Virus record (IMG/VR): IMGVR_UViG_3300032242_001849
Span: 1-21,971 of that record
Strand: one strand, 5' to 3'
Length of the DNA: 21,971 nucleotides
DNA from: a virus
The notes under the pieces were generated by a model. That model was not told the DNA's origin, made no database searches, and saw only the letters and a list, made by a program, of their open reading frames with translations. The position numbers were made by a program, and so were the translations under genes. Each line of letters begins with the position of its first letter. The first letter of the stretch is position 1. Positions 704 through 20,970 of this stretch are shown in pieces.

Positions 704-727
704 GATCAGAATCCCTAGCCTGATGCC

Positions 728-2874: not shown

Positions 2875-2877
2875 CCT

Positions 2878-4821: not shown

Positions 4822-4838
4822 TCCTGTCGTCGTTTCCT

Positions 4839-4860: not shown

Positions 4861-4864
4861 CCCT

Positions 4865-6854: not shown

Positions 6855-7495
6855 TGGCTTACAACTTTGTGCAGGCCAATGGTTCCAGGATTATTATCTC
6901 AAATCCTCTAGTTACTAGCGTACCAATTACGCTTTCAGCATGGATAAGGCGCGATGCAGTAGCAACGGAAACCAAAAGCATTTTTGTGCTTGCTGCGAGC
7001 AATGATGAGGTAAATGTTAGATTAACTAGTTCAAATACGTTGCAGGCGTACATGTTTTTTGCCGGTGGCGGCGGCTTTGCTGTAGCCACGAACGGAAATG
7101 TAATTGCAGCTAGTGCATGGACACATGTGGCGGCACGCTACAGTCTTAGCGGAAGCAGGCTAACAGTCTCCGCTTACGTCAACGGCGTTAAAGGTACTGA
7201 CGGCTCCTCAGCAGTTACTTTCTCTCAGGGGGCTTTTGTAGCCATGCAAATAGCGTCATACGGAGGAACCGCTGTATTCGGTGGCGACATTGCCGACGCA
7301 GGCGCCTGGAACTCCGCGCTTAGCGATACCGAGATTGTTTCACTATCACAAGGCATTAGCTGCAGAAACATAAAACCGCAAAGCCTAACATTTTACGCTC
7401 CACTGATTCGGAATCCTAATGACATACGGAACAACAGAACGCTAACGCTCGTCAACTCTCCCACTGTTTCCAACCACCCTCGCATCTACACATGA
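6854..7495 (+). CDS. LamG/concanavalin-like adhesin domain protein
   Basis: This 213-residue protein has the layout of a laminin-G-like (concanavalin A-fold) domain. It contains VPITLSAWIRRD, a loop region NEVNVRLTSSNTLQAYMFF-like, SAWTHVAARYSLSGSRLTVSAYVNGV, and IADAGAWNSALSDTEIVSLSQG, which are the WxHVA..Y and the GxI.D..W...LSD.EI signatures of that fold. Phages use such domains as carbohydrate- or surface-binding fibre tips. Its ATG overlaps the TAA of the collagen-like fibre (TAATG), and its stop overlaps the next start (ATGA). Base composition is visibly lower in G+C than its neighbours (27 of 60 G+C in the line starting at 6901), and codon choice is different, which points to separate acquisition. 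Confidence 0.75.
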   Translation: MAYNFVQANGSRIIISNPLVTSVPITLSAWIRRDAVATETKSIFVLAASNDEVNVRLTSSNTLQAYMFFAGGGGFAVATNGNVIAASAWTHVAARYSLSGSRLTVSAYVNGVKGTDGSSAVTFSQGAFVAMQIASYGGTAVFGGDIADAGAWNSALSDTEIVSLSQGISCRNIKPQSLTFYAPLIRNPNDIRNNRTLTLVNSPTVSNHPRIYT

Positions 7496-7947
7496 CGCTC
7501 CACTACCGCATCACGGACCCCGCCGATGTACGCGACCTTGGCGACTTGTTCGCCACATGGGTTAAAACAGGGAACCCCAAGGCCGACGACTGGGCAGAGC
7601 AGCCGCCAGCACCGGCCCCTGATGCCGCCTGGCAGGAAGGGGCCTGGGTGATTCCGCCACCGCCTGAGCCCACCGCTGACTGGGCACGCTTCAAGCGCAT
7701 CGCGCTCAACTCGGACACCTTGAACGGAATCATTGCCGCCGCCTACGGCTCGGTGCCGGTCGCTGCTGGCGCCCTGGCTTCGGCCCTGCTGCGTGCTGAA
7801 TCCGGGGATGTCAGCGATTTCGCGGACGCCTGGAAGAAGATCACAAGGGCTGTCGATGTCCCCGCCGAGGTGATCACCGGCTTCGTCGGCGTGGCCACGG
7901 CCTGCCAGCTCCCGGCGGATTTTGTGGCGGCGCTCTCGCCAAACTGA
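7492..7947 (+). CDS. Hypothetical protein of the fibre cassette
   Basis: This 151-residue protein is not recognised with confidence. Residues 1-60 hold several Trp residues in a Pro-rich setting (FATWVKTGNPKADDWAEQPP, AAWQEGAWVIPPPPEPTADW). Residues 65-151 look all-helical, with FKRIALNSDTLNGIIAAAYG and a helix around VPAEVITGFVGVATACQLPADF. A Trp/Pro-rich N-terminus joined to a helical bundle is seen in small proteins encoded just after phage fibre genes, including fibre assembly helpers. The four-base overlap with the LamG-like gene also suggests joint production. Base composition returns here to the high G+C of the rest of the operon. Confidence 0.7.
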   Translation: MTLHYRITDPADVRDLGDLFATWVKTGNPKADDWAEQPPAPAPDAAWQEGAWVIPPPPEPTADWARFKRIALNSDTLNGIIAAAYGSVPVAAGALASALLRAESGDVSDFADAWKKITRAVDVPAEVITGFVGVATACQLPADFVAALSPN

Positions 7948-7959
7948 GGACACGACCGC

Positions 7960-8253
7960 ATGAGCACCATGCCACCGGAGGACGTCAGCCACCGCGAGAT
8001 CTGGATCGCGCTCACCGACCTGACCGGGAAGATCAACAACATCCACAGCCTGCTGATCGAACGCAAAGAAGACCAGGACCGCACACGCAAGGACGTTGAT
8101 GGCCTGTTTGATCGGGTCCGGCGGGTTGAGGCCCGCCTGGCCCAGGTGGTCATCCTGGGCGTGGTCTTGGCGATTCTGACCCAGGCATTCAGCCAGGCCG
8201 TGCAGCTCAGACTGCTGGTGCCGACCATTGAACGTCAGCAGGTGAAGCCATGA
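7960..8253 (+). CDS. Coiled-coil, single-TM protein (holin or spanin-like candidate)
   Basis: This 97-residue protein has a predicted coiled coil (about residues 12-60, with KINNIHSLLIERKEDQDR and VDGLFDRVRRVEARL). One membrane helix follows (residues 61-82, VVILGVVLAILTQAFSQAV), then a short tail. The arrangement is like XhlA-type phage membrane proteins and several accessory holins, where the coil faces the cytoplasm. GAGGA at 7946-7950 lies nine bases before the ATG. It overlaps the following small gene by four bases. It could equally be a structural membrane protein; no enzyme motif is visible. Separation from the lysin gene near 17700 means the lysis genes, if this is one, are split. Confidence 0.6.
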   Translation: MSTMPPEDVSHREIWIALTDLTGKINNIHSLLIERKEDQDRTRKDVDGLFDRVRRVEARLAQVVILGVVLAILTQAFSQAVQLRLLVPTIERQQVKP

Positions 8254-8462
8254 ACTGGTTCACCGCCGTTCTAATCGCCGGTTACATCGGCGTGTGTGAG
8301 GCCCGGGTGCCATCGCCGTATCAGGCCTGTGAGAGCCGCTGGAACTGGGCGCTAGGCGTGCTGGTGCCCTCGCCTATCCAGGGCGCCGGGCGGCTCATTG
8401 CCGGCCAGCTGCGCCGCCGCAGGGAGCCTGACATCAACCCCGACAACGATCAGCAGCCATGA
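8250..8462 (+). CDS. Small hypothetical protein with hydrophobic N-terminus
   Basis: The 70-residue product begins MNWFTAVLIAGYIGVCEARV, a hydrophobic segment that could be a membrane anchor or signal peptide. A Cys occurs at residue 16, but the residue before it is Val, which does not fit a lipobox. The middle (WNWALGVLVPSPIQGAGRLIAG) is weakly hydrophobic, and the end is basic then polar (LRRRREPDINPD). It overlaps both neighbours by ATGA junctions, which supports expression. Position next to the coiled-coil/TM protein suggests a membrane role, perhaps with it; this is inference. Confidence 0.6.
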   Translation: MNWFTAVLIAGYIGVCEARVPSPYQACESRWNWALGVLVPSPIQGAGRLIAGQLRRRREPDINPDNDQQP

Positions 8463-8878
8463 CCGCAAGCAAGAGCGAAACGATCCTGGCCCGCATCGCA
8501 ACGGTGCTGGGCCCCACCGCTGGCATCAGCTCAAGGGTGTTCCGCGATCGCTGGGAAGCGTTGGCACGCAACGAGCTCCCGGCCCTGGTGATCGAGCCGC
8601 AAAGCGAGAACGATGACATCCTCACCACCACCGAAACGATCACCACGACGCTGGCGGTGAACGTTGACATCCTGATCAGCGGCGCCCCGCTCAGCACGTT
8701 GGCCGATCCCATCAGGGTGTCGCTGCATTCGCTGCTGCTGGCTGATACAACTCTGCGCGGCCTGGTGATCAGCATCTATCCAACCGGCCGCCAATGGGAC
8801 GCGCAGAGCGGCGAGATTGGAGTGTTGAGGTGTTCCTACGCTGTCAGGTACAGGACCAGCATTGGGAGCCTGACTTGA
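8459..8878 (+). CDS. Tail terminator protein (gpU-like)
   Basis: At 139 residues this matches the size of lambda gpU-type tail terminators, which cap the finished tail tube and join it to the head. The alpha/beta layout fits: an N-terminal helix (KSETILARIATVLG), then SRVFRDRWEALARNELPALVIEPQSEND, a strand pair (TTTLAVNVDILISG), a helix (RVSLHSLLLADTTL) and a last strand pair ending CSYAVRYRTS. The phrase R..R..LAR.ELPALVI.P is common to this group. It lies one small frame upstream of the tail tube gene, the expected neighbour. In most phages it would sit right after the head-tail joining gene; here about 3 kb of fibre genes separate them. Confidence 0.75.
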   Translation: MTASKSETILARIATVLGPTAGISSRVFRDRWEALARNELPALVIEPQSENDDILTTTETITTTLAVNVDILISGAPLSTLADPIRVSLHSLLLADTTLRGLVISIYPTGRQWDAQSGEIGVLRCSYAVRYRTSIGSLT

Positions 8879-9063
8879 GCATCCTTCCTCCCCTCCCCGA
8901 TCAGCCCGGCGCCTACCTGCTGGTAGACGACGACTGGATCCTCGACCACCGCACCGAACTTCCCGCCCTTCCTGATCTGAACCATGGCACTGACGAGACG
9001 GCAGCTGTTGATGGTGGCCCTGGAGGCGACCTACGGGACCAGTGCGACCCCGACGGGCACTGA
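8875..9063 (+). CDS. Possible small TTG-start frame before the tail tube gene
   Basis: A TTG at 8875 overlaps the tail terminator stop (TTGA) and opens a 62-residue frame. The first 36 residues (SILPPLPDQPGAYLLVDDDW, then ILDHRTELPALPDLN) read like real protein and fill the 105-base gap before the tail tube gene. The rest (GTDETAAVDGGPGGDLRDQ) is the shadow of the tube gene in another frame. Either the gene is real and overlaps the tube gene by 80 bases, or it is a decayed remnant or a leader. Evidence is composition and junction style only. Confidence 0.35.
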   Translation: MSILPPLPDQPGAYLLVDDDWILDHRTELPALPDLNHGTDETAAVDGGPGGDLRDQCDPDGH

Positions 9064-9922
9064 TGCCCTGCTGGTGCTTGATCCCAAGCTGACGCCGCTG
9101 GATGCCCAGGTGATCGAACGCGCCATCATCGATCCGGCGTTTGGCCGGGTGCGCTCGCGGATCCTGGCGCAACGCAAGCTGGGGCTGGCGTTTGGTGTTG
9201 AGGCCACCGGCAGCGGCACCGCCGGCACCGCGCCGAAGTTTGGCCCGCTGCTGCAGGCTTGCGGCCTGAGCCTGGCCACCGTGGCCAGCACAAGCAACAC
9301 CTACAGCCCTGCCACCCCGGCCACCGATTCGGTGACGCTGAATCACAACTGGGATGGCAACAAGCATGAGGGCGTCGGCACCCGTGGCACGTTTGAGCTG
9401 GCGATGACGGCCGGCGAAATCCCCCGGTTCAATTTCACCATGACCGGGATTTACGGCAACGGCCCGACTGATGTGGCGTTCCCAACCCCGACCTACACCA
9501 ACCAGGCGCAGCCGCTCGATGTAAGCGCCAGCAACACCACCAGCGTGAGCGTGGCTGGCCTGTCGGCTTGCATGGCTGAGTTCAGCCTGAACTGCAACAA
9601 CACCATCGAGTTCTTTGATCACGCTGGCTGCACCAAGCAAGCCAGGATCACCGATCGCATGGTGGAGGGCAGCATCACGATCGAGCGGCCGGACCTGCTG
9701 AGCACGAAGGACTTCTACGCCCAGGCCATTGCCGGCACCACCGGCTCGATCAGCTTCACGCACGGCACCACCGCCGGCAATCGCATCGTGGTGACCATCT
9801 CGACCGCCAACTTCGGCCCGCCTGAGGTGGCTGACCTGCGCGGCATCGCTGGCCTGAAGATCCCCTTCGTGGCCCTGCACACCGCCGGCAGCTCCAACGA
9901 GTTCTCACTCGCCTTCACCTGA
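8984..9922 (+). CDS. Major tail tube protein
   Basis: The 312-residue protein builds the hexameric rings of the tail tube. It opens with LTRRQLLMVALEATYGTSAT, the usual start of this family, in which an ATYG(T/V) turn follows the first helix. It continues with repeated beta sheets (KLGLAFGVEATGSGTAG, FGPLLQACGLS, GTFELAMTAGEIPRFNFTMTG). Its end, FVALHTAGSSNEFSLAFT, is a typical last strand. Length and position between terminator and assembly chaperones fit. No Shine-Dalgarno sequence is seen before the ATG. A perfect 8-bp hairpin overlaps its stop codon, which is consistent with a highly expressed gene protected or attenuated at its 3' end. Confidence 0.88.
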   Translation: MALTRRQLLMVALEATYGTSATPTGTDALLVLDPKLTPLDAQVIERAIIDPAFGRVRSRILAQRKLGLAFGVEATGSGTAGTAPKFGPLLQACGLSLATVASTSNTYSPATPATDSVTLNHNWDGNKHEGVGTRGTFELAMTAGEIPRFNFTMTGIYGNGPTDVAFPTPTYTNQAQPLDVSASNTTSVSVAGLSACMAEFSLNCNNTIEFFDHAGCTKQARITDRMVEGSITIERPDLLSTKDFYAQAIAGTTGSISFTHGTTAGNRIVVTISTANFGPPEVADLRGIAGLKIPFVALHTAGSSNEFSLAFT

Positions 9923-9937
9923 GCCGCCAGGCTCAGG
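9918..9937 (+). terminator. GC hairpin at the end of the tail tube gene
   Basis: CCTGAGCC at 9918-9925 and GGCTCAGG at 9930-9937 form a perfect 8-bp stem with a GCCA loop, followed by CTTTCG. The TGA stop of the tube gene is inside the 5' arm. The weak T run argues for partial termination or RNA stabilisation. Confidence 0.6.
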
Positions 9938-9968
9938 CTTTCGACTCTGAACCACTCACCGCAACCCC

Positions 9969-10364
9969 ATGGGCTTCAAGATCAGCAGCGCGACCAGTTA
10001 TCCCTGGCCTGTTGCCGGGGAGCTGGCGGGAATCCGTTACAGCTTCACCGCTGACTTTGCTTTTCTGGACCAGGAGCGGATTGATTACTTGCTGGTGGCA
10101 TCAGCCAAGCGAGAAGCGCTTTTGAGGCGTGGCGAGGATGACCCGGCGCTAGAGGACGTAAACCATCGCTCCATTGCCGCTGAGGTGCTGGTTGGATGGT
10201 CTGGCGTGACCGATGGCGAGGGCGAACCCATCGACTTCACCGCTGCATCCATGGCCAAGTTCCTTCGGATTCAGGGCGTAGCAGCGGCCATTGTGAAGGC
10301 CTGGGGCGAAAGCCTTGAGGGAGGCCGCAAGGGAAACTCCAAGGCGCCGCGCGGCATTGGCTGA
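9969..10364 (+). CDS. Tail assembly chaperone, G-like (zero-frame product)
   Basis: The 131-residue product is the upstream part of the paired tail assembly chaperones that coat the tape measure before the tube polymerises, as lambda gpG does. Recognition rests on position (between tube and tape measure) and on the all-helical C-terminal half (SIAAEVLVGWSGVTDGEGEP, FTAASMAKFLRIQGVAAAIV). The phrase VLVGWSGV.D..G.P..FT is common in this family. It also rests on the -1 frameshift site near its 3' end. Translation in the zero frame stops at 10364 after KGNSKAPRGIG. A minority of ribosomes should shift at 10331-10337 and make the longer GT form. Confidence 0.82.
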   Translation: MGFKISSATSYPWPVAGELAGIRYSFTADFAFLDQERIDYLLVASAKREALLRRGEDDPALEDVNHRSIAAEVLVGWSGVTDGEGEPIDFTAASMAKFLRIQGVAAAIVKAWGESLEGGRKGNSKAPRGIG

Positions 10365-10371
10365 GCGGCGC
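10331..10371 (+). promoter_or_regulatory. Programmed -1 ribosomal frameshift site
   Basis: GGGAAAC at 10331-10337 is read in the zero frame as G GGA AAC, the canonical X XXY YYZ slippery heptamer and one base different from lambda's GGGAAAG. Six bases later, GCGCCGC (10344-10350) can pair perfectly with GCGGCGC (10365-10371), giving a seven-pair all-GC stem with a 14-base loop that contains the zero-frame stop. The downstream -1 frame is open to 10657. Confidence 0.88.
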
Positions 10372-10657
10372 TGGGGACACCGATGATCTGCAAGAGTCGG
10401 CAGCAGCGTGGGGCCTTGAGCTGCCGCAGGAGCTGACCGAGCCCGAGCACTTTCAGGTGTGGCCTGCAAATTGGCCGGCCGTAGACCTGTTTATCCGCTG
10501 CCAGACCCAATGGCGCGTCAGCATCAACGGCCGGGCTGGTTTGGACTATGGCGCTTTGCTGGCAATGGGTAGCCTGTTCTTAGTGGAAAACCTGAGCCAG
10601 GTCGTGGAAGACGTGCAGGTGATCGAGGCCGAGATTTTGAGCCAGGGGGCGGACTGA
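10337..10657 (+). CDS. T extension of the tail assembly chaperone (DUF1799-like), made by -1 frameshift
   Basis: This frame has no good start of its own: the first start-like codon is a GTG at 10457, well inside the conserved region and without a ribosome site. Read through the slip site, it adds 106 residues to the first 123 of the G product, giving a 229-residue GT protein. The added part starts LQGAARHWLSGAGDTDDLQE and continues with WGLELPQEL, VWPANWPAVDLFI, CQTQWRVSINGRAGLDYGAL and EDVQVIEAE. This is the pattern of the DUF1799 family encoded between chaperone G and the tape measure in many phages: WP.NW.A...F....TQWR....G..GLDY. The T part recruits the tape measure or tube subunits. Its stop overlaps the tape measure start (TGATG). 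Confidence 0.85.
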   Translation, partial: LQGAARHWLSGAGDTDDLQESAAAWGLELPQELTEPEHFQVWPANWPAVDLFIRCQTQWRVSINGRAGLDYGALLAMGSLFLVENLSQVVEDVQVIEAEILSQGAD

Positions 10658-13005
10658 TGGCCGCAAACATGGACGCGTTGCTAAAGGTTGTCGCTCAGGT
10701 CACTGGGATCGAGCAGGTGAGCCAGCTTGGAAGCACGTTCAAATCGGTGGAAGGCGCGGCAAAAGGACTGACTTCTAGTACTGGTCTGCTTGGCGGTGCG
10801 CTAGGCGCGCTGGCTCCTGTGGTCACCGTGGGAGGGCTGGTGGCCTTGGTGGGCAAGACCGTTGATGCTGGCAAGCAAATGTATGAATTCAGCCAGCAAA
10901 CCGGGGTAAGCGTGGAGATGCTTGGAAAGTTCAAGAAAGCCGCTGGCGTCACCGGCGTTGACATGGACACCGTCGCTGGGGCCTTTGTGAAGCTCGGCCG
11001 GTCTATGTACCTGGCGGCCAGTCAGTCGGGGTTTGCTGGCAAGACAAAAGAGGAGATTGACCAGGCCGTAGAAACGGTAAAAGATGGCGAGCGGCGTCAA
11101 ACAGACATTTTAAAAGAACAGGCGGATCGGCGTATTTCCGTATTGGAACGCGAAACAAATAAACGCATGAAAGAAATTAACAAGCGCTACAGAGAGGAAG
11201 AGCGGATCCTTAATGACACTTTTGATGATGTGCGCGACAAAGAAGACCAGGCGGCTGAAGAAGAAACAAGCCGTTTAACGAAGCAAATTAGCAGACGCTA
11301 TGAAAAAATCAAAAAAGCTGTTAACGATGACGCTCAATTAAATGAACAAGGTAAAGCCATTGCTCTGCAGAATCTTCAAGACAAAGAAGAAAAAGAGCTT
11401 AGCGTTATCCGCAAGGCCGCAGCGCAAAAGTCTAAAGAACGTCATCGAGCAATTAGGGACGATCTGCAGATAAATTCGGACGCACTCAGCGACGCAAAAG
11501 ATAAAGAGGAAACTGCCCTCAAGCAGCGCCTAGAAAACGAAAAACAAGCAATCAAAAAAGCTACGGATTTCAGGGTTGAACAACTTAAAAAATCTACTGA
11601 AGCTGCAACAAAAGAACTGAAAAAAAACCCGGCAGCCGATGAGCTGGGTCAGGAAATGGAAGATTTAGGCCTCAGCGGAAAAAAGGCGTCAAAAGCATTC
11701 CAAGAGCTTGGAATTAGCATTAAAAATTCTGACGGTAGCCTTCGCGATAAGGGCGAAGTAATGCTGGAACTAGCAACAAAGTTGGGAAGCATGGCAGACA
11801 AGACGCGCGCAAGCGGCTTGGCAATGGATATCCTTGGCAAAAGCGGATACAAAATGCTCCCCGTTTTTGCTTTGGGTGGCGCTGCGATTCAAGGCTTTAC
11901 AAGCAAAATGACAACGCTAACCGCTGGCGAGCTGAAGAAATACAGCATTCAGCTGACTGTGCTTTCTGGCAAAATTGCTGGCATTGGGGTTGACCTGACC
12001 AAGGCACTGCTTCCGGCGCTTACCACAATTGCATCTGGAATTGGCAAGGTCGTTGAATTTTTCATGAAAATGCCCGAACCTATCCAAAAGGTTGCGCTGA
12101 TTGCTGCAACGTTTGCAGTAGGAATTACCGCCGCCGCCGCTGCCTTGGCGCCGTTTGCCGTCTTGCTTGGATCGCTTGCTGGGACAGGTGCGCTGACAGC
12201 CATCACCACTGGGCTTGGTGGCATCCTTGCTTTGATTCTTTCATGGCCTGTGGCATTGGTGGTTGCCGGAGCTGCCATTTTCCTGTTCCGCGATCAAATC
12301 TACGGCGTTGTTGATGGCATTAACAAGTCCATCCAAAACACCGTTAAGACAATTGTTGACCTGGTAATTTTTGATCTGCAATTGCTGGGTAAGACCATTT
12401 ACGACGCTGTAGACGGCATTAACAAAGGGATCCGGAACGCCCTTGAATCAACGTGGAAATGGGTAATTGGTTTAATGGGACAAATTGGCGCATCATTGGC
12501 AGCGCCGTTTGAGGCTGCCGCCAATGGCATCAGACAGGTGTTGCGGAATGTGGTCAGCTATGGCGCCAACGTCATCAACGGATTCCTGGGCGCGGTGAAT
12601 CAAATGATCGCTGCAGTCAACAGGGTGGCCGGGCAACTGCGCCTTCCCCAGTTGCCCCTGTTCGGTCTGGTTCCAACGCCGCAATTCGCCACCGGCGCCT
12701 ATGTGACTGGCGCCACAACGGCCACGGTGGGCGAAGCCGGGCCTGAGTATGTGATCCCAGCGGCGCGCATGGGCGCTGCTTCCAAGGCGTTCCTGCAAGG
12801 TGCCAGGGGCATTGATGTGGTGAACGGCGCGGGCGGTTCGGGTGCCCCCACCATCAACATCACCACCGGCCAGGTGGTGCAGATGCCTGATGGCAGCCAA
12901 TGGGTCAGCATGGCTGACCTCGAGCAGGCCATGCGCGCCACCGCTGCTGGTGTCTTGGGTCAGCTGCGCACCCCAGCCGGCCGGGTTGCTCTGGGAGGTG
13001 CCTGA
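10657..13005 (+). CDS. Tape measure protein
   Basis: The 782-residue protein sets tail length and probably reaches the host membrane. It starts with a helical region (VVAQVTGIEQVSQLGSTFKS) and the usual tape-measure block TGVSVEMLGKFKKAAGVTGV (residues about 80-105), with a matching block FQELGISIKNSDGSLRDKG near residue 350. Between them, residues about 129-325 form a long, highly charged coiled coil. Hydrophobic membrane-like helices occupy residues about 475-550 (LIAATFAVGITAAAAAL, AITTGLGGILALILSWPVAL). The end has the typical tail phrase ATVGEAGPEYVIPAARMG. Two related segments, VDGINKSIQN and VDGINKGIRN, lie 33 residues apart. The stretch from about 11090 to 12460 is poorer in G+C than the ends of the gene (22 of 60 at 11341 against 42 of 60 at 10801). 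Confidence 0.92.
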   Translation: MAANMDALLKVVAQVTGIEQVSQLGSTFKSVEGAAKGLTSSTGLLGGALGALAPVVTVGGLVALVGKTVDAGKQMYEFSQQTGVSVEMLGKFKKAAGVTGVDMDTVAGAFVKLGRSMYLAASQSGFAGKTKEEIDQAVETVKDGERRQTDILKEQADRRISVLERETNKRMKEINKRYREEERILNDTFDDVRDKEDQAAEEETSRLTKQISRRYEKIKKAVNDDAQLNEQGKAIALQNLQDKEEKELSVIRKAAAQKSKERHRAIRDDLQINSDALSDAKDKEETALKQRLENEKQAIKKATDFRVEQLKKSTEAATKELKKNPAADELGQEMEDLGLSGKKASKAFQELGISIKNSDGSLRDKGEVMLELATKLGSMADKTRASGLAMDILGKSGYKMLPVFALGGAAIQGFTSKMTTLTAGELKKYSIQLTVLSGKIAGIGVDLTKALLPALTTIASGIGKVVEFFMKMPEPIQKVALIAATFAVGITAAAAALAPFAVLLGSLAGTGALTAITTGLGGILALILSWPVALVVAGAAIFLFRDQIYGVVDGINKSIQNTVKTIVDLVIFDLQLLGKTIYDAVDGINKGIRNALESTWKWVIGLMGQIGASLAAPFEAAANGIRQVLRNVVSYGANVINGFLGAVNQMIAAVNRVAGQLRLPQLPLFGLVPTPQFATGAYVTGATTATVGEAGPEYVIPAARMGAASKAFLQGARGIDVVNGAGGSGAPTINITTGQVVQMPDGSQWVSMADLEQAMRATAAGVLGQLRTPAGRVALGGA

Positions 13006-13466
13006 TGATCCGGGGACAGGCGGCGTTCGTGGCGATCGGCGACGGCTTTGGCGCCACGTTTGCGCGGTGGCAATCGTACTGGGTTGATGCCGTGGTGTCG
13101 TGGGACAGCCAGCAATGGAGCTACCAACAGCTTGACTGGGCAGGCCTCGCCAGCGGCCAGGCTGTGGGCGATCAGGCGACGCTGACCCTGCCAGCGGTGC
13201 CATCGGTGCAGGCCATGACTGAGCAGGCTCTGGCAGGCCCGTGGGTGGCCACCCTGCGCGTGATCCAGTTCGATGAATCCACCGCCGGCAGCGGCACACC
13301 AGCCAGCTACATCCTGGCCGCCAGCTGCGTTGGTGAGGTGATTGGCGCCAGCGCAAGCCTGACCCAGATCACCTGGAAGCTCGGCTCGGCGTTGTCGCCG
13401 GTTGGTGCGCAATTCCCGCCGCGCACGGCGATCTCGCCGCTGATTGGGGTGCCCTGCCGGCTATGA
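13005..13466 (+). CDS. Minor tail protein, distal tail region
   Basis: This 153-residue beta-rich protein lies between the tape measure and the hub/tip gene, the position of distal-tail or hub-adaptor proteins (lambda M/L, Dit analogues). Visible features are a Trp-rich N-terminal half (FARWQSYWVDAVVSWDSQQW, SYQQLDW), a strand pair (ATLTLPAVPSVQ, PWVATLRVIQFDES) and a C-terminal phrase FPPRTAISPLIGVPCRL. That last phrase resembles the ends of phage minor tail proteins in which the last strands bind the hub. No catalytic motif is seen. It overlaps the tape measure stop by one base and the hub gene by four. The specific role is inferred from order only. Confidence 0.65.
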   Translation: MIRGQAAFVAIGDGFGATFARWQSYWVDAVVSWDSQQWSYQQLDWAGLASGQAVGDQATLTLPAVPSVQAMTEQALAGPWVATLRVIQFDESTAGSGTPASYILAASCVGEVIGASASLTQITWKLGSALSPVGAQFPPRTAISPLIGVPCRL

Positions 13467-15703
13467 ACGACTTCGGCTTCAGCGTGAACATGCTGCCGCT
13501 CAAGAGCGGCACCAGCTCCTCGGGGAGCTCAGCAGCGGCGCAGGCCTATGGCACGATGACCGTGGCCGCGGCGGCCCTGACCGGCAAGCTGCCACCGCCA
13601 GCCAACGCCGCCGCAGCTGCCGGCAACTCGCCGCTGCAGGTGCCTCAGGCGGCCATGGTGGTGGGCGAGCCGATCCCGGTGGTGTTCGGCCGCAGGCGCG
13701 GCAACGTTGGTGGCGTGCTGGTGTTCCCCAAGGCGACTGAAGCTCGGTTTGAGAACTCCAGCACCACCATCACCGCGCGTTACCACTGCGTGCTCGGCGA
13801 AGGACTGCTGGGTGATGTCGAGGTGCGCGATGTGCGCCAGGGTGAGTGCCGCCCTGGTGCCGTTTACAGCCAGAACTACAACCAGCGCGCTGGGTCATGG
13901 GCCGCCGGCAACGTCGCCACGGCCCAGAGCGGTTACACCGTGCCGGCATTCCCCAGCTTCACCGGCGGTGGCGGCAACTACCAGGGCCTGAGCACCATCG
14001 AATTCAGCGGCACCTATGCCGGCGGATCTGATCAGTGGCGCACGGCTTGGAATGTGTTCGTGCGCAATGGCCTGGTGATTGAGCGCGGCCGGCTGCTTGA
14101 TTCCACCGCTGGGAGCAGCGACAACATCGCCGATTTGATCCTGTGGGCTCTGCAGCGCAGCGGCCGGGTGCCCAATGCCCTGATTGATTTCGACAGCTTG
14201 ACCGCTGCGGCGCGATTCGTTGAAGCCAACGGCCTGTGGTGCAATGGCGAGTTCAGCAGCTCCACCAACCTGGGCGACTGGCTGATCAAGCTGTTGCCCG
14301 ACTTCCTACTGCGGGAAACCAAGGTGGCCGGCAAGTTTGGCTTGCGGCCTTTGTTGCCCACCAATTCAGACGGCAGCATCAACACCGGCACGATCACACC
14401 GGCCTGGAGCCTGACGGAAGCGGCAATCATCCCAGGCAGCCTCCAGATTGAATACGCCGAAGCCAGCAGCCGGCGGCCGGTGGCCATGGCCCTGCTGTGG
14501 CGCCAGCAGCAAGACGCCACCGATGTGCCGATCGTGCGATCCCTGGCGGTGGGCGATGTCAATGCCAGCGGCCCGGTTGAGCAGCACGACCTGAGCCAAT
14601 ACGCCACGACCGAGAATCACGCGGTCAAGGTCGGCGCCTACCTCTATGCCCGGCGCACCCTTTCAACGCACACCGCCACCGTGCGGCTCAAGGCCGGCAG
14701 CCAGACCGGCACCATTGCACAGGGCGACATCGTGCAGGTCTACCTGCAGAACACCAGCAGCCGTGAGCTCGCTGATGTGTTTAATCGCTACTACCAGGTG
14801 GAATCAGTGGCGCAAGCGATCAGCGGTGAAGAGACGCTGCAGCTCAGCCATTTCCCGGTTGATTCCAGCGGCCGGAGCCTGATCGCGCTGGCCGTGACCC
14901 GCGCCAGCGGCCCGGGCCAGGTGCTCTCAAGCAACCGTACCGGCGGCGGCTGTGATGTGGCTGGAGCTTCGGCCAACACCACAATCCCCGCAAAGGTCAC
15001 CAGCGGCACGCCGATCAGCGGCCAGGCGTCCACCTATTGGGCGGCCTCGGGGCAATCGATTGACCTGTTTCATCCGTGGACTGAGCTGCCCCGCGATGCA
15101 CCGCCAGGCGCCGGCAATGGCACCGGCGTGCCCGGCAAGCCACCGCGGACTGGGGCGCCCGTGGCGGGGCCTGATGGTCCGCTCGGCCCAAGCGATGGCA
15201 CCGGCGGTCTTGGCCCCTGCCCGTTTGGGTATTACCGCATCACCAGCAGTGTTGATTTTGCAAGGATCAACGCTTTTGATCTGGCCATTTCAGCAGGTGA
15301 CACGATCATCTCTAAAAACGTGCCAACCGTTTCTTCGCTTGGCAATGTCAACAACGGCATCTTCATCACCGAGCGTTACCGGGTGTCATTCACCAACATG
15401 GACGGCAACGCCGAAAGCAGAGACTATTCAGGCGTCATCGGTTCGACTAACGGTGATACGTTTAGAGCGCCTTTCAGGTTCCAGCAAACGCAATACTGCT
15501 GCAACGCATCAGATGGCACCCTAGGCGCTTGCACTTCAACACGCAGCTACAGGGTGAAACCAGGCGACACGCTCTGGGACATTGCCGGCCGTTACTACGG
15601 CGACCCGACCAGGTGGCCCGACATCTACAACGCCAACCGGGGCATCATCGGCTCTGATCCCAACCTGATCTATCCAGGCCAGAACCTGACCGTCCCAACG
15701 TAA
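13463..15703 (+). CDS. Tail hub/tip protein with C-terminal LysM domain
   Basis: The 746-residue protein is likely the central hub or tip (host-specificity J-like) protein. Residues about 55-135 contain GEPIPVVFGRRRG and CVLGEGLLGDVEVRDVRQG, the G.PIP.VFG.R/GE.V.Gi...V.V blocks seen in phage tip proteins. The central part (LADLILWALQRSGR-like, FCNGEFSSS-like, LPDFLLRETKVAGKFGLRPLL, then ITPAWSLTEAAIIPGSLQIEY) matches the phage tail hub fold. A Gly/Pro linker at about residues 540-585 leads to a small beta domain. Residues 696-746 form a clear LysM module (YRVKPGDTLWDIAGRYYGDP, ending LIYPGQNLTVP), which binds N-acetylglucosamine polymers such as peptidoglycan. This suggests contact with the cell wall during injection. 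Four-base overlap with the previous gene. Confidence 0.82.
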   Translation: MNDFGFSVNMLPLKSGTSSSGSSAAAQAYGTMTVAAAALTGKLPPPANAAAAAGNSPLQVPQAAMVVGEPIPVVFGRRRGNVGGVLVFPKATEARFENSSTTITARYHCVLGEGLLGDVEVRDVRQGECRPGAVYSQNYNQRAGSWAAGNVATAQSGYTVPAFPSFTGGGGNYQGLSTIEFSGTYAGGSDQWRTAWNVFVRNGLVIERGRLLDSTAGSSDNIADLILWALQRSGRVPNALIDFDSLTAAARFVEANGLWCNGEFSSSTNLGDWLIKLLPDFLLRETKVAGKFGLRPLLPTNSDGSINTGTITPAWSLTEAAIIPGSLQIEYAEASSRRPVAMALLWRQQQDATDVPIVRSLAVGDVNASGPVEQHDLSQYATTENHAVKVGAYLYARRTLSTHTATVRLKAGSQTGTIAQGDIVQVYLQNTSSRELADVFNRYYQVESVAQAISGEETLQLSHFPVDSSGRSLIALAVTRASGPGQVLSSNRTGGGCDVAGASANTTIPAKVTSGTPISGQASTYWAASGQSIDLFHPWTELPRDAPPGAGNGTGVPGKPPRTGAPVAGPDGPLGPSDGTGGLGPCPFGYYRITSSVDFARINAFDLAISAGDTIISKNVPTVSSLGNVNNGIFITERYRVSFTNMDGNAESRDYSGVIGSTNGDTFRAPFRFQQTQYCCNASDGTLGACTSTRSYRVKPGDTLWDIAGRYYGDPTRWPDIYNANRGIIGSDPNLIYPGQNLTVPT

Positions 15704-16866
15704 TGGCTCAATTCCCCGCGCTATCTCCAACAGCTGCGCCGATCACCTTTGGGGCGGCGCCGGTCACGATGGCCAGCAGCCTCAACGGCTCGGAATCACG
15801 CATCCGGCATGGCACCGCCGAGATTGGCAGGCGCCTGCGTTTGACGTTCGAGAACGTCAGCGAGTCGGATTTCCTGGCGATCCTTGGCCACTACCGCGAC
15901 CAGCGCGGTGGTTTCGATTCGTTCGGGTTCAGCACCACCACCCTGGCCGCAGCGCTGACCCCATCCGGCTACGCCTGGCTATACGCCAGCCCGCCCCAGG
16001 TGGTCGATGAGCACGCCAACGTCTTCACGGTGGCCTGTGAGTTCAAGGCCGAGCCGCGCGGCCTGGTGGTGGCACCTGGCGATACATGGCGCAGTTTCTT
16101 CTCGACGTTCACGCCAGGGGCCAGGAACAATGGGATTGTTTCAGCCGCTGGGGTGCCATGGGTGACCAGCTCGACGCGATTTGGGCCAGGTTCTACCGGG
16201 TGGATCCCGCTGGCATTGTCGCCATCGCTGTGGCTTGACTTTGGCGATCCTTTCAGCGTTACATCGGCGTCAGGCAAAATCACGCAGATTGACGACAAGA
16301 GTGGCAACGCACGCCACGCAACGCAATCATACGCACCAAGGCAACCGCTGTACACCACGGCTGGCGTAAACGGACGCAACTGCATGGAATGCACAAATGG
16401 GGATCAATGGGTCGAAATTGCTGCAACGCTAAACGTTCAATGTTTTGTCATTGTCCATCAGAATGCCGGCGGTTGGTTTATTGTTGGTGATTCTTCAAGT
16501 TTTGATTTTCACGGGACGCCTGGAAGTTATTGGTTTGATGGCACCTATGCAAGTTCTCGCATTCTTTCGGGAAACGCTTGGCTTAATGGCGCTTCTATCG
16601 CCCCAAGAGACGCTGAAAAGCAAGCGACTACAACCGCTTACATTTTTAACACTACGGACAACGTTAGAATCAGTCAATTTTCGGCAGACAGAGGCAATGG
16701 CTACGGCACGCGCAGCGCCAATGGTAAGACCTGCGAAATCCTTGGATTCTCCAGCAACCTTGGCACCAGCGATCGGCAGAAACTTGAGGGATACCTAGCG
16801 CATCGCTGGGGCTTTGCCGCAAGCCTGCCCAGCGGTCACCCTTATCTATCGGCACCGCCTACCTAA
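15703..16866 (+). CDS. Tail-tip protein with C-terminal lectin-like domain
   Basis: The 387-residue protein has two parts. Residues 1-125 (MAQFPALSPTAAPITFGAAP, LRLTFENVSESDFLAILGHY, DQRGGFDSFGF) are homologous to the whole product of the gene at 17321 and belong to a small tail-protein family common next to phage tip genes. Residues about 170-387 resemble a concanavalin-like lectin domain of the type LWLDF.D...(x)ITQIDDKSGNARHATQ, ending TSDRQKLEGYLAHRWGFAAS followed by LPSGHPYLSA. The latter signature, ILGFS..L...DRQKLEGYLAHRWG, marks a widespread adhesin module. The lectin part, especially 16380-16700, is less G+C-rich than the N-terminal part, suggesting that the domain was swapped in. 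It shares one base with the hub stop (TAATG). Confidence 0.78.
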   Translation: MAQFPALSPTAAPITFGAAPVTMASSLNGSESRIRHGTAEIGRRLRLTFENVSESDFLAILGHYRDQRGGFDSFGFSTTTLAAALTPSGYAWLYASPPQVVDEHANVFTVACEFKAEPRGLVVAPGDTWRSFFSTFTPGARNNGIVSAAGVPWVTSSTRFGPGSTGWIPLALSPSLWLDFGDPFSVTSASGKITQIDDKSGNARHATQSYAPRQPLYTTAGVNGRNCMECTNGDQWVEIAATLNVQCFVIVHQNAGGWFIVGDSSSFDFHGTPGSYWFDGTYASSRILSGNAWLNGASIAPRDAEKQATTTAYIFNTTDNVRISQFSADRGNGYGTRSANGKTCEILGFSSNLGTSDRQKLEGYLAHRWGFAASLPSGHPYLSAPPT

Positions 16867-16892
16867 CCTGAACCAGGCTCCTGACCCCCTCC

Positions 16893-17321
16893 GTGGCATC
16901 CGTCGTTTACGACTCGTTCCTGGCCGACATGTTCAGCGGCGCGGCCAACACCAGCCACAGCTACAAGGCGATGCTGACCACCAGCAGCTACACCGAGGAC
17001 CGTGGCGCCCACAGCAAGCGCAGCAGCGTCACCAACGAGGTCAGCGGCACCGGATACACCGCCGGCGGCGTTGCGGTCACACTGACCGCAAGCCTGAACA
17101 CCACCACGCACAAACTGACGTTGACCATCGGCTCGGCCACCTGGTCCAGCAGCACCATCACGGCGCGCAAGCTGGTGGTTTACCGGGCCCGCGGTGGCGC
17201 CAGCTCTGCTGATGAGCTCGTCTGCTGCGTGGACAACGGCACCACCGACCTGGTGAGCAGTTCCAGCACCATGCAGTGGAACTCCTCGACCTGGGAGATC
17301 CCGCTGCCGGCGCCGGTCTGA
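16893..17321 (+). CDS. Conserved phage tail-tip protein of unknown function
   Basis: The 142-residue product starts at a GTG (ASVVYDSFLADMFSGAANTS) and contains YKAMLTTSSYTEDRGAHSKR, then SSVTNEVSGTGYTAGGVAVT and SSTITARKLVVYRARGGASS. This order of motifs (YxSFL.D...G; F/YK.ML.TSSY....H.KRS.VTNEVSGTGYTAGG; WxSSTITAR) is familiar from small structural proteins of many tailed phages and is unusually well conserved. It is probably a tail-tip or fibre-associated beta protein, but its biochemical role is not known to me. It lies between two genes with paralogous N-terminal domains and overlaps the next gene by one base. No Shine-Dalgarno sequence is seen. Confidence 0.75.
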   Translation: MASVVYDSFLADMFSGAANTSHSYKAMLTTSSYTEDRGAHSKRSSVTNEVSGTGYTAGGVAVTLTASLNTTTHKLTLTIGSATWSSSTITARKLVVYRARGGASSADELVCCVDNGTTDLVSSSSTMQWNSSTWEIPLPAPV

Positions 17322-17689
17322 TGGCGCAATTTCCTGCCCTTGAGCCGCTTGAGCGGTCCTACGGCCTGGGTGCTCACCCGGTATCTGCGGCGACGCTTGC
17401 CAACGGTGACGAGACCAGGTTCCTCCATGGAGCCCTGGCGTTTGGCGTGCCGATGTCGTTGCAGTTTCGCAAGCTCAACGTCACCGACACGCAATCAATC
17501 CGCGACCACTACGCCGCCCACAGCCTGGCCAGGCCGTTCAAGATCCCGGCAGAGCTGTGGCGCACGCACACCACCGCGACCGATGTGGTGCCGGTGGAGT
17601 TTGCATGGCGCTACGCCGCACCGCCGGAGGAAACGCCGATCAGCGGCGGCCTGTTTGATGTCTCTGTGTCCCTGCTCTCTGTTGACTGA
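17321..17689 (+). CDS. Tail-tip protein, paralogue of the N-terminal domain at 15703
   Basis: This 122-residue protein begins MAQFPALEPLERSYGLGAHP and matches residues 1-125 of the gene at 15703 along its length. Shared features are the MAQFPAL opening, the (L/A)NG.E.R..HG turn, the strand MSLQFRKLNVTD and the .I..HY helix. The ATG at 17321 is chosen over the in-frame ATG at 17276 because it shares one base with the previous stop (TGATG) and because it aligns exactly with the start of the paralogue. It likely forms part of the tail tip. The function is unknown; no enzyme motif is visible. Confidence 0.78.
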   Translation: MAQFPALEPLERSYGLGAHPVSAATLANGDETRFLHGALAFGVPMSLQFRKLNVTDTQSIRDHYAAHSLARPFKIPAELWRTHTTATDVVPVEFAWRYAAPPEETPISGGLFDVSVSLLSVD

Positions 17690-17694
17690 TCACC

Positions 17695-18432
17695 ATGGCC
17701 AACACCATCGCATCAATTCGTGACGCAGCCCAGGAAATTGCCAAGCGGGGCCAGATCCTGCCGCATCAACTGGCGGCCCTGAGCGCCTTGGATCAGGCTC
17801 TGACGCCTGAGCAGCGGCAGCAGTTCACCGAGGACTGGCGTGCCGTGGGAAGCCCAGCAGCGCCGATGCCAAAGCCGCTGCCGCCGCCGGTGCGCAGGGT
17901 CACCAACCCGCTCACGGGGTTTCCCTATTTCGCCCAAGGGGACAACGGGAATGAGGGCTGGCGTCAGTGCCAAACCAGCTCGATTGCGATGTGCCTGGCC
18001 TACCTGGGCGTGGGCGGCATCAAAGACGATCTGGACTATCTGCGGGTGGTGGAGCGCCATGGGGACACCACCAGCCAGGCGGCACATCAGGCGGCGTTGG
18101 CCGAGCTCAAGGTGCGCGCGCGCTTCGTCACCAACTGCTCAGCATCCCAGCTCCAGGCCGAGATCCGTGCCGGTCTGCCTGCCGCCATTGGTGTGCTTCA
18201 CCATGGGCCAACGTCTGCGCCATCAGGCGGCGGCCACTGGCTCGCGGCCTACGGCTTTGATGCCTACGGCTGGGTGGTGAATGACCCCTTCGGGGAGCTG
18301 GACCTGCTCAACGGCCAATGGCTCCGCACCGGCGGCAAGTCCGGCCGAAACCTCCGCTACAGCTACCGGAACCTCAACCCACGCTGGCTGGTGGATGGGC
18401 AGGCCAGCGGCTGGGCCTGGCTGTTCAGCTGA
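17695..18432 (+). CDS. C39-like cysteine peptidase, probable endolysin
   Basis: The 245-residue protein combines a helical N-terminal region (residues 1-50, IRDAAQEIAKRGQILPHQLA and LTPEQRQQFTEDW) and a Pro-rich linker with a papain-fold peptidase domain of the Peptidase_C39_2 type (about residues 74-245). Candidate catalytic residues are Cys92 (EGWRQCQTSSIAM), His181 (SGGGHWLAAYG) and Asp197 (VVNDPFGEL), in the expected order and spacing. Such domains cleave peptide bonds in peptidoglycan stems or bridges. Position at the end of the late operon is typical for a phage lysin. No signal peptide is present, so release would need a holin (candidate at 7960). An alternative is a virion-associated wall-degrading enzyme. 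Confidence 0.78.
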   Translation: MANTIASIRDAAQEIAKRGQILPHQLAALSALDQALTPEQRQQFTEDWRAVGSPAAPMPKPLPPPVRRVTNPLTGFPYFAQGDNGNEGWRQCQTSSIAMCLAYLGVGGIKDDLDYLRVVERHGDTTSQAAHQAALAELKVRARFVTNCSASQLQAEIRAGLPAAIGVLHHGPTSAPSGGGHWLAAYGFDAYGWVVNDPFGELDLLNGQWLRTGGKSGRNLRYSYRNLNPRWLVDGQASGWAWLFS

Positions 18433-18610: not shown

Positions 18611-18875
18611 GGCCTGGCTCGACCCCACCCTCAGTCTGTCAGCCGAGCTTGAGCTGGAACGCGCACGCCGGGCAATCCCCAAGCTCCACCGCCATGACCT
18701 CGAGGCCCGACTCGACTCGGCGTTGGTTCACCTGGTGACACAGGACCAGCTTTTGCGGCAGGCGCTGGCCCGGGTGCAGGAGCTGGAGCTCAAGGAAATC
18801 GTCAACCAGCCGCCCAACGATCAACACCACGCCTGGGCCGCTGAGGTGCGCGGGTGGTTTGGGTTGGGATCCTGA
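18609..18875 (+). CDS. Small helical protein, NblA-like pattern (hypothesis)
   Basis: The 88-residue frame has a good ribosome site (GAGGAG at 18598-18603, five bases before ATG), one of the few in the window. Residues 8-57 should form a helical hairpin. LSL at residues 8-10, then Leu14, Leu16, Ile23, Leu26, Leu35, Leu42, Val43, Leu48, Leu49 and Leu53 fall, without gaps, on the hydrophobic positions I recall for NblA, the small protein that drives phycobilisome breakdown (it opens LSLEQQF). Residues 58-88 (ELKEIVNQPPNDQHHAWAAE onward) have no NblA counterpart. NblA genes are known in some cyanophages. Generic helical hairpins can give similar patterns, so this is only a lead; otherwise the protein is of unknown function. 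Its 3' end overlaps the sigma gene on the other strand by 74 bases. Confidence 0.65.
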   Translation: MAWLDPTLSLSAELELERARRAIPKLHRHDLEARLDSALVHLVTQDQLLRQALARVQELELKEIVNQPPNDQHHAWAAEVRGWFGLGS

Positions 18876-19749
18876 GGCTGAGCTGCCGCGCCACCTCCGG
18901 CAGCGGCGTGCGCAACGCTGCTTCAGCCTCACGCAGCTGCGCCCTGGCAGCTGGGATGGTCAGCTTCTCGGATGCCGCCAGCGGCCCCAGCTTGAGCTTG
19001 GCGCAGCCAATCCCCCAGCGGCCAGCAATCAACCGGGCCTGGACCGGCGGCAGCGCGGCAATGCGCTCACGCAGCTCCATGGTGATCGGGTCAGGCTCTG
19101 GTGCGCCAGGGCTGGCAATCATCGCGCCAAGTGGCGATGGATCCTCAGACCCGGCCACCGGCTGATCGAGCGAGCAGCAGGATTGGCCCACAGTGAGAAC
19201 CAGATCAAGATCACGCAGGCTCATGCCCAACGCTTCGGCCAATTCGGCACGGCTGGGTTGGCGCCCCAGCTGCCGCTGCAGCTCCTCGCCGATCCGGCCC
19301 AGCCTGGCCAGCTTGGGCGCATGGCCTGATGGTGGCCGGATCAGCCTGCTGCTGGAGTCAGCCCAGCGACTGATCCCCTGGCGTATCCACCAGTAGCCAT
19401 AGGTCGAGAACTTGTAGCCCCGTGCCGGATCGAATCGTTCCGCGCCGCGCATCAGGCCCATGGCGCCAGCCTGGAACAGGTCGGGCAGATCAGCCTCCCC
19501 AACCTGCCGGCCCAGGCCCGGGCGCATCGTGCGCACCACATGGGCCACTAGGCGCAGGTTCGCGTTGACGATGCGATCCCTGGCCCTGCGGCCGCGGCGA
19601 ATGATGCGAGCAGGAGCCTGATCAGGCCCAGCAGGATGATCCTGCCAGGCCCGAACCAGGCTGCCGAGGTGGAGTTCCTCGGCTGCGGTGAGCAGCGGCT
19701 GGCGCCCAGCCTGCTGGAGCCAATGCGTTGCCGCGTCATCGCTGCTCAT
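18802..19749 (-). CDS. Sigma-70 family RNA polymerase sigma factor
   Basis: The 315-residue protein would direct host RNA polymerase to selected promoters. Region 1.2 is at residues 4-37 (THWLQQAGRQPLLTAAEELH). Region 2 spans 56-137, with ARDRIVNANLRLVAHVV (2.1), DLPDLFQAGAMGLMRGAERFD (2.2) and YKFSTYGYWWIRQGISRWAD (2.3-2.4), keeping the aromatic residues used in promoter melting. Region 3 follows (LGRQPSRAELAEALGMSLRD). Region 4 (226-282) begins normally with LPPVQARLIAGRWGIG, but its helix-turn-helix is diverged: TIPAARAQLREAEAALR replaces the usual SRERVRQIE.xAL recognition helix. The YWWIRQGI phrase is typical of cyanobacterial group 2 sigma factors. A basic tail (RAPQRPRRGVDRW) ends the protein. 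It is last in the minus-strand operon, three bases after the preceding stop. Confidence 0.92.
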   Translation of the reverse strand: MSSDDAATHWLQQAGRQPLLTAAEELHLGSLVRAWQDHPAGPDQAPARIIRRGRRARDRIVNANLRLVAHVVRTMRPGLGRQVGEADLPDLFQAGAMGLMRGAERFDPARGYKFSTYGYWWIRQGISRWADSSSRLIRPPSGHAPKLARLGRIGEELQRQLGRQPSRAELAEALGMSLRDLDLVLTVGQSCCSLDQPVAGSEDPSPLGAMIASPGAPEPDPITMELRERIAALPPVQARLIAGRWGIGCAKLKLGPLAASEKLTIPAARAQLREAEAALRTPLPEVARQLSLRIPTQTTRAPQRPRRGVDRWAAG

Positions 19750-19752
19750 GGG

Positions 19753-19908: not shown

Positions 19909-20126
19909 GCCACCTCCTTGATGCGGCGGCGCAGCTGGCGGCTCCAGTGGAACCCGGCAGCTACGCCCAGCAGCGGGGCAGGGCCTGGGGCGCCGGGTGC
20001 GCTGATCGGCCTGCAGATTTCCGGGCCCACGACATACTCGGTGCAAACGATTGCGGTGCCGGGCAGCGTGGTGAAGGGCCCCAAAGAACTGGGGTCAAAC
20101 AGCAGGGCAAGAGGAAGAGACAGCAT
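19905..20126 (-). CDS. Small hypothetical protein
   Basis: The 73-residue frame starts MLSLPLALLFDPSSLGPFTT, contains two Cys residues (IVCTEYVVGPEICRPI), a Pro/Gly/Ala-rich turn, and ends with a basic segment (HWSRQLRRRIKEVA). Its ATG shares one base with the stop of the single-stranded DNA-binding protein gene (TGATG), and its stop overlaps the next start (ATGA), so it is probably translated as part of the operon. A weak hydrophobic N-terminus could be membrane associated. No family is recognised. Confidence 0.6.
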   Translation of the reverse strand: MLSLPLALLFDPSSLGPFTTLPGTAIVCTEYVVGPEICRPISAPGAPGPAPLLGVAAGFHWSRQLRRRIKEVA

Positions 20127-20710
20127 CAGAACGGCACCTCTTCGCTATCGCCGAACTCATCAACGAAGCCACCGGCATCAGCGGCGACGCTGTAGCCCTC
20201 CTGCTCTTGGAAGCCATCAGTGGCGTCTTGCTCCTCCCGGGGCACAAAGCCGACCACCTGGGCGGCTTTGGGCTGCAGACTCAGGCCCGTGCCTTCGGGC
20301 CGCTCCCAGCCGTAAGTGGTGAAGCTCAAAATCACCTCGGAGCCGTTGCCGATGGCGGCACCATCCCAGGGCTGCTTTTTGGCATCAATGACGCGCGGGC
20401 CCGGCGCGGTGCTGCCGTCGTCGCGCGTGAACTGCTGGGTCTTGAACTTGACGACCACCTTCGACTCGTCGTCTTTGTCGGCTTTCCAAGGCACCCCTTT
20501 GTCGGAGGGCCTCTTCTTGCTGCCGTGGGTTTCGGTGAAGATCGCCTCAAGCTTCTCGATGAACGCGGCGTGACTGGGGTTGGTCTTGGGTTCCAGCACC
20601 AGCTCACAGGTCCAGGCCTTCGGCTTGGATTCGTCGAGCTGCGCGCGTGGGATGATCAGGTGGGCCCAACGCACGGTGGCGCGGGGCGTGTAGTGGATCT
20701 CGGATGCCAT
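20126..20710 (-). CDS. Phage single-stranded DNA-binding protein (DUF2815/gp2.5-like)
   Basis: The 194-residue protein resembles the OB-fold single-stranded DNA-binding proteins of phage replication modules (the DUF2815 group). It contains an N-terminal strand block (ATVRWAHLIIPRAQ, KAWTCELVLEP) and a helix FIEKLEAIFTETHG. It continues with VVVKFKTQQFTRDDGSTAPG, PRVIDAKKQPWDGAAIGNGS and a final strand set (VILSFTTYGW, KAAQVVGFV). The C-terminus is acidic and ends EEVPF, like the DDIPF protein-interaction tip of bacterial SSB and the acidic tail of T7 gp2.5. The ATG at 20710 (MASEIHY) is preferred to the TTG at 20716 because it follows the upstream stop by two bases. It would protect single-stranded DNA during replication or recombination. 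Confidence 0.82.
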   Translation of the reverse strand: MASEIHYTPRATVRWAHLIIPRAQLDESKPKAWTCELVLEPKTNPSHAAFIEKLEAIFTETHGSKKRPSDKGVPWKADKDDESKVVVKFKTQQFTRDDGSTAPGPRVIDAKKQPWDGAAIGNGSEVILSFTTYGWERPEGTGLSLQPKAAQVVGFVPREEQDATDGFQEQEGYSVAADAGGFVDEFGDSEEVPF

Positions 20711-20712
20711 GG

Positions 20713-20970
20713 TCAATTCAGGGGGGAAAGGGGATCAAGACCCGCACCAAGCCGGATCAGGTGATGCGCGGCGCCAGAGCGGCTGAGCTGGTGCCGCTCC
20801 ACCAGGTCGAGAACCGCGGCGGCAGAGTCGGCCCGAAGCGACACCATCACGACCACCGAGCCGCCACCCAGACGCTGGGCGCTGCCGTAAGTGCGGCGGT
20901 TCTGCGTGGCTGGCAGCGTCGGCCGGCGTTTGCGCGGCTCAGGCTCCTGACTCTGATGCTTGCGGGTCAT
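20713..20970 (-). CDS. Ribbon-helix-helix DNA-binding protein candidate
   Basis: This 85-residue protein has a basic, disordered N-terminus (residues 1-35, RKHQSQEPEPRKRR). It continues into a possible ribbon-helix-helix fold: a strand at residues 38-46 (SVVVMVSLR), a first helix 48-60 (DSAAAVLDLVERH), a turn QLSRSGA, and a second helix 66-76 (GAAHHLIRLGA). That order, V.VSLR.......L......LSRS....LI..G, matches CopG/Arc-type dimers that bind operators. If correct, it may regulate this operon, whose leader carries paired operator-like sites. The four-base overlap with the upstream gene supports co-translation. No family hit could be run, and a non-DNA-binding role remains possible. Confidence 0.6.
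   Translation of the reverse strand: MTRKHQSQEPEPRKRRPTLPATQNRRTYGSAQRLGGGSVVVMVSLRADSAAAVLDLVERHQLSRSGAAHHLIRLGAGLDPLSPLN

Follow-up and report, generated by a model that had tools for sequence, protein, structure and literature searches.

The sigma factor gene of virus record IMGVR_UViG_3300032242_001849, a contig of 21,971 bases analysed at its full length (the window), encodes a protein in which the residues that hold opened promoter DNA are kept and those that read the duplex are largely changed. Its most informative feature is a C-terminal tail that carries a short motif, Q[LIM]x[LIMFW] (Qhxh). These features suggest a sigma factor that keeps its grip on melted promoter DNA without duplex reading, and a virus that turns its genes on while its DNA is being replicated. 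The best explanation, by analogy with known systems a reasonably probable one, would be a replication-coupled sigma factor tethered to the host sliding clamp, DnaN. That the protein binds DnaN, depends on replication and serves late genes is our inference from the evidence given below.

A sigma factor gene in a cyanosiphophage

The gene lies at 18802..19749 on the minus strand, exactly where the original prediction had placed it, and encodes 315 amino acids from an ATG start. It was assigned to the sigma-70 family from the ORF listing, from Pfam, NCBIfam and PHROG_351 profiles and from Foldseek. Pfam cut-offs are reached for region 1.2 (Sigma70_r1_2, PF00140, residues 10-29, 19663..19722; 22.0 bits, at the cut-off of 22), for region 2, which serves in core binding and -10 reading (Sigma70_r2, PF04542, residues 61-130, 19360..19569; 54.7 bits, cut-off 24), and for region 3 (Sigma70_r3, PF04539, residues 147-219, 19093..19311; 47.3 bits, cut-off 25.3), all on the minus strand. 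Regions 1.2 and 2 are thus kept, as first proposed, and so is region 3, which the proposal had left unmentioned. A Pfam search to E<=1 returned no Sigma70_r4 in the protein. PHROG_351 matches with E = 5.4e-44. The best NCBIfam model, TIGR02997 (Sig70-cyanoRpoD; 175.7 bits, below its curated cut-off of 384.5), agrees with the cyanobacterial group 2 style suggested earlier, and a Foldseek search with the predicted structure matches whole solved chains of sigmaA and RpoS. With regions 2 and 3 and the -10 recognition residues in place, the protein belongs to the sigma-70 family; the canonical, -35-reading region 4 of groups 1 and 2 is missing.

That the gene is phage-encoded is borne out by the virus contig and by the structural genes, portal to lysis, that precede it. 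This late (virion) module occupies 98..18432 on the plus strand and, by profile matches, runs from the C-terminal part of the terminase large subunit to a C39-like endolysin; its further parts are portal, capsid/protease, Mtd_N fibre, tail tube, tape measure and LysM tail protein. The tail fibre with the Major tropism determinant N-terminal domain (PF18454) is encoded at 5391-6854 (plus strand). Small unannotated minus-strand genes precede the sigma gene, and an ORF of 196 amino acids upstream of it on the same strand (20126..20716) found no match in Pfam and PHROG searches. In this siphophage genome, the PHROG_351 match stands beside the junction of lysis and early genes. Homologous sigma factors of the cyanosiphophages S-LBS1, S-CBS1, S-CBS3 and KBS-S-2A, annotated as rpsD4/group 2 sigma, occupy a comparable position, with the lysis end of the virion module on one side and the early module on the other, and a comparison of gene order puts the S-LBS1 gene in the same place as that of the window. 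The gene family is already known; the tail appears to be unreported in the open literature searched, and the passages of the S-LBS1 paper considered here give annotation and identity remarks alone on the sigma factor. An integrase/DNA invertase-type gene (L201:3662-4933, minus strand) is found in G001, a relative of 96% identity, so the window phage is probably temperate.

Where does this sigma factor come from? In a tree built from regions 1.2-3, with region 4 and the tail left out, the motif-bearing sigma factors, including that of S-LBS1, form one clade (support 98/87). The nearest host rows, from Synechococcus lacustris (L179) and Synechococcus TMED19 (L184), group with the phage clade at 100/97; unlike the phage proteins, they have a canonical region 4 (SRERTRQLE) and short ends without Qhxh. 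The simplest reading of this grouping, in a tree that samples 80 host loci and leaves the direction unsettled, would be that the phages took over a group 2 sigma of a picocyanobacterial host, much as the original prediction suggested.

Changes in the promoter-reading residues

The region 4.2 recognition helix (residues 263-280; 18910..18963, minus strand) reads LTIPAARAQLREAEAALR in the window versus VSRERVRQLEAKAILKLR in the host. At the positions of E. coli R584, E585, R588 and Q589 the window protein has I, P, R and A, so that one residue in four is kept, whereas a column tally finds all four -35-reading residues in 10/10 host reference clusters. Within the clade of the window, R584 is kept in 2/28 clusters and E585 is mostly missing. 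This divergence of region 4 exceeds chance variation by far, and given the host and clade counts the earlier observation of a helix without its usual residues is correct. The main objection foreseen to that prediction, a normal region 4 in close homologues, falls away because these homologues share the abnormal region.

Has region 4 been lost altogether? Its fold (residues 230-280; 18910..19062, minus strand) is predicted to remain, with a changed DNA-reading face: the AlphaFold helices at residues 221-232, 235-245, 254-260 and 265-279 have a pLDDT of about 90. Across 11 pairs of relatives, dN/dS is 0 to 0.35 in region 4 (0.12 and 0.30 for the window against L002 and L003) and 0.05-0.23 in regions 1-3; region 4 is under purifying selection. 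The 4.2 helix is strongly different from subclade to subclade. An altered region 4 is also present in a separate phage sigma clade, made up of L091, L103 and L115 with their relatives NL273 and NL318 (L273, L318), so the change arose more than once; this second clade has long ends without the Qhxh motif.

The roles of individual residues in promoter contact are established for E. coli sigma-70. In regions 2.3-2.4 of the window protein (RGYKFSTYGYWWIRQGISRW; 19363..19422, minus strand; column tally), Y425, F427, T429, Y430, W433, W434 and Q437 are all kept, and T440 is replaced by S. Across the clade, 26-28 of 28 clusters retain the single-strand -10 readers, and 2/28 retain the duplex -12 reader T440. 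The extended -10 readers of region 3.0 (19300..19341, minus strand) are lost in the window, where H455 has become G and E458 has become P; among the clade clusters H455 is kept in 2/28 and E458 lies outside the common residues, compared with 10/19 and 12/19, respectively, in other phage sigma factors. The pattern of residues suggests that the clade sigma may still open promoters but would locate them otherwise. For the host-like -10 boxes first proposed, the single-strand readers speak in favour and the T440 substitution in the duplex -12 contact against; a new or absent -35 element, also proposed, is the likely reading of I, P, R and A at the four -35-reading positions. The losses of H455, E458 and T440 go beyond the original prediction, as does the C-terminal Qhxh tail.

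A conserved motif in a variable tail

The tail that follows region 4 (residues 281-315 in the window; 18805..18909, minus strand) is 24-101 amino acids long in clade members and absent from the host sigma factors compared. In the window its AlphaFold pLDDT falls below 50 from residue 293. Tail dN/dS among relatives reaches 1.0, a weak constraint, and the sequence is variable apart from one short motif, which follows a linker of 8-55 amino acids and in most cases stands 5-10 residues before the C-terminus. Its forms include QLSLF (L057, L059 and L061), QLALF (L084), QLTLL (L050), QLRLF (L051), QLALL (L070), QLVLPL (L058) and QLSLRL (L005). The window carries QLSLRI (residues 289-294; 18868..18885, minus strand), a less common hexapeptide form that stands 27 residues from the C-terminus and 8 after region 4, and that clade-wide statistics mark as a candidate for sliding-clamp binding.

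Could such a short motif have arisen by chance? With clusters formed at 80% identity, Q[LIM]x[LIMFW] occurs in 27/28 clade clusters versus 3.0 +/- 1.6 after shuffling of the tails (at most 9 in any of 4000 rounds), and the narrower QLxL in 23/28 versus 1.3 +/- 1.1, with 0/19 among other phage sigma clusters; these shuffles overstate independence, because the clade clusters are related by descent. As controls, the Q was swapped for nine other residues (xLxL), which gave 0-4 clusters, and the reversed motif gave 2. The motif idea had been formed on 13 sequences; another scan brought in 19 clade clusters, 18 of them with the motif, and three later scans added 3 new clade clusters, 3/3 with it. 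The final tally stands at 30/31 clade clusters versus 3/36 other phage sigma clusters, and the plain motif is absent from L090. The weight of the motif evidence is its retention over long branches while the linker drifts.

Motif and region 4 do not go strictly hand in hand. L012, L084 and NL254 combine the motif with a region 4 nearer canonical, so the motif is not strictly tied to -35 loss. A strict rule by which a diverged region 4 predicts the motif was rejected as weak (p = 0.049 over all phage clusters; not significant among long tails): L091, L103 and L115 are diverged and lack the motif, and the signal is one of clade membership. The S-LBS1 sigma (44%) resembles that of the window in its tail motif and in the divergence of its region 4. 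Those of S-CBS1 and S-CBS3 differ in having a canonical region 4 and no tail motif. KBS-S-2A, an isolated marine cyanophage whose sigma (L252) falls outside the clade, has a canonical region 4 with a C-terminal QLPLIP, a possible second origin of the motif as far as its letters tell. Tails with two Qhxh motifs are seen in the S-LBS1 subclade (L009, L011, L046, L064, L079, L082, L085 and L089), where a QLVLVA type stands right after region 4 and the second further on; such tails could allow bivalent clamp binding.

The bacterial sliding-clamp motif has the consensus QL[S/D]LF and is usually C-terminal; examples are QLGLF in Pol II, QLNLF in UmuC and QLVLGL in Pol IV (PMC3716654). Peptides of the QL[S/D]LF-like or QLxLxL kind are present in the window (QLSLRI) and in its relatives (QLSLF, QLALF, QLTLL, QLVLPL). 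The Qhxh tail matches this pattern and is a candidate DnaN-binding motif. In picocyanobacterial hosts, DnaE carries QGNLFDL near residue 935 in 5/6 genomes and QGSLLDL in the sixth; the position of QGNLF agrees with that of the clamp motif in E. coli. QMVLF near residue 760 of host DnaE was set aside as a clamp motif, as it presumably belongs to the polymerase core. One host Y-family polymerase carries QGHLF. DnaN itself was found in 6/6 host genomes, and one copy, set against solved clamps, aligns with them from end to end. A search with the bacterial DnaN family PF02768 alone, T4-type families lying outside its scope, recovered control rings in 11/14 cases and no DnaN C-terminal domain in 25 clade phage records, which are possibly incomplete. 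With no DnaN detected in these phage records, the clamp partner would, if the reading is right, be the DnaN of the host.

Proposed replication coupling, target genes and alternatives

Bacteriophage T4 offers the closest comparison. Its gp55 consists of sigma domain 2 with a clamp motif on a linker and is activated by the clamp gp45, while gp33 takes the flap-binding place of sigma region 4 and has a clamp motif of its own (PMC7892883, PMC2988020). The gp55 clamp epitope is C-terminal, and the linker before it diverges in sequence and length (PMC2988020). The clade sigma resembles this pair in its region 2-based -10 recognition, in what looks like a clamp-type motif on a variable linker, and in the lack of canonical -35 reading, gp33 clamping the beta flap as sigma region 4 does. 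It differs in being one chain in which regions 1.2 and 3 and the region 4 fold are kept, rather than a domain 2 protein with a separate gp33, and in its clamp, which is phage-encoded (gp45) in T4 and here would be the host DnaN; common ancestry is not implied. A review of T4 reports that no natural fused late sigma has been found and asks why, adding that gp55-gp33 fusions made artificially, with the clamp motif placed internally, are functional and almost wholly clamp-dependent. We consider it possible, at a little under even chances, that in small cyanosiphophages the clade sigma, as one natural chain, does the late-sigma work of both gp55 and gp33, uses the host clamp and couples transcription of phage genes to replication. 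A clamp-type sigma tail and a replication-coupling hypothesis were not found in the open literature searched.

In the favoured, replication-coupled reading, a cyanosiphophage would have captured a picocyanobacterial group 2 sigma and rebuilt it. Region 2 would hold the host core RNA polymerase, the single-strand readers would open -10 DNA, and the tail would make up for weakened duplex contacts (extended -10, -12 and -35). On phage DNA that is being replicated, the Qhxh motif would dock with host DnaN in its peptide pocket, and the clamp would bring the holoenzyme to promoters. As the clamp would deliver the holoenzyme, transcription would be tied to genome copying, and phage genes, most likely late virion genes, would be transcribed while the genome is copied. 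One point against this explanation is that the diverged 4.2 helix might still read DNA.

Which genes would be served? The virion module at 98..18432 (plus strand) is the supposed target, again by analogy. In the relatives examined, the sequence before terminase showed no shared canonical -10/-35 promoter, and no shared -10-like hexamer turned up either there or in their other intergenic stretches; the switch to late genes that the original prediction had thought possible is a hypothesis. Because the first base of the window already falls within the terminase gene, the late promoter of this phage is not part of the window, and with no late promoters found in relatives the link from sigma to late genes is one of analogy. 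A conserved stretch before the terminase small subunit (G001 1-142; G003 22,900-23,036) contains the inverted repeat TTGTCACA-N-TGTGACAA and no clear -10; it is perhaps near a packaging site, because contigs tend to end there.

Directly upstream of the sigma gene in the S-LBS1 subclade (for example L074, L009 and L013) stands the conserved element TACCGCTTAGGTTCCGGWTCTGCACC, followed 0-4 bases on by a TATRRT-like hexamer. In S-LBS1 the element recurs at about 22,960-23,019 (minus strand) and 31,850 (plus strand), some genomes hold several copies, and one copy precedes a small ribbon-helix-helix-like gene. A role as the -35 element of the sigma gene's own promoter was rejected, as the 0-4-base variation in spacing and the ribbon-helix-helix-like gene fit a repressor operator better; by its sequence the element with its hexamer looks like an operator/promoter set. 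In L057, L059 and L061 the motif-bearing gene directly follows the end of a second sigma gene. In the L057 genome (G005; pair at 20249-21941, minus strand) the upstream sigma has a canonical VSRERIRQRE and no motif tail, and the downstream one a diverged region 4 and QLSLF. A tandem pair in which one sigma reads the -35 element and the other does not suggests that the two divide the work between them, perhaps as a middle and a late factor.

The sigma factor could instead be an ordinary phage late sigma that recognises, through region 4, another -35 element, and whose disordered tail has nothing to do with the clamp. The predicted fold of region 4 and the purifying selection acting on it fit this, as does the R588 kept in the window, and phage 7-11 provides a precedent for new bipartite promoters in the passages of PMC8948821 considered here. 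In the same passages, gp36 of phiEco32 uses single-element promoters and has no homology to region 4 (PMC8948821); it resembles the clade sigma as a phage sigma without canonical -35 reading and differs in that region 4 is missing, with a clamp link unmentioned there. We nevertheless regard a mere change of -35 specificity as unlikely: it leaves unexplained why Qhxh is present in 30/31 clade clusters and in nearly none outside, and why the extended -10 readers and T440 eroded in parallel, and the 4.2 helix is highly different between subclades.

Less likely still is a tail that binds the host clamp to recruit or block replication, through origin priming or DnaE interference, with no activation of late promoters. 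The motif evidence serves this alternative as well as the replication-coupled sigma, and repeat-rich putative origins adjoin primase-polymerase genes. These repeats (GCCTAACCT and GTGATC/GTGAC; S-LBS1 34,237-34,641, G001 32,712-32,964, G003 19,707-19,909) lie just downstream of the primase-polymerase gene and, by their sequence, are possible replication origins. Against it, the motif is borne by a sigma whose core-binding and -10-melting regions are conserved, and the known precedent, T4 gp55/gp33, is transcriptional. Finally, a decaying, functionless former host sigma gene would account for the vanished canonical residues and the undetected Pfam region 4, but is highly improbable given dN/dS values of 0.05-0.23 in regions 1-3 and <=0.35 in region 4 (11 pairs), intact ORFs, and -10 residues conserved across dozens of clusters.

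If the replication-coupled reading is true, it would explain how a sigma factor manages without -35 and extended -10 contacts. The clamp-coupling strategy would then have arisen a second time, with host parts, in phages without a detected clamp, and the question of the missing fused late sigma would become directly testable. The Qhxh tail would also provide a marker motif for such sigma factors elsewhere.
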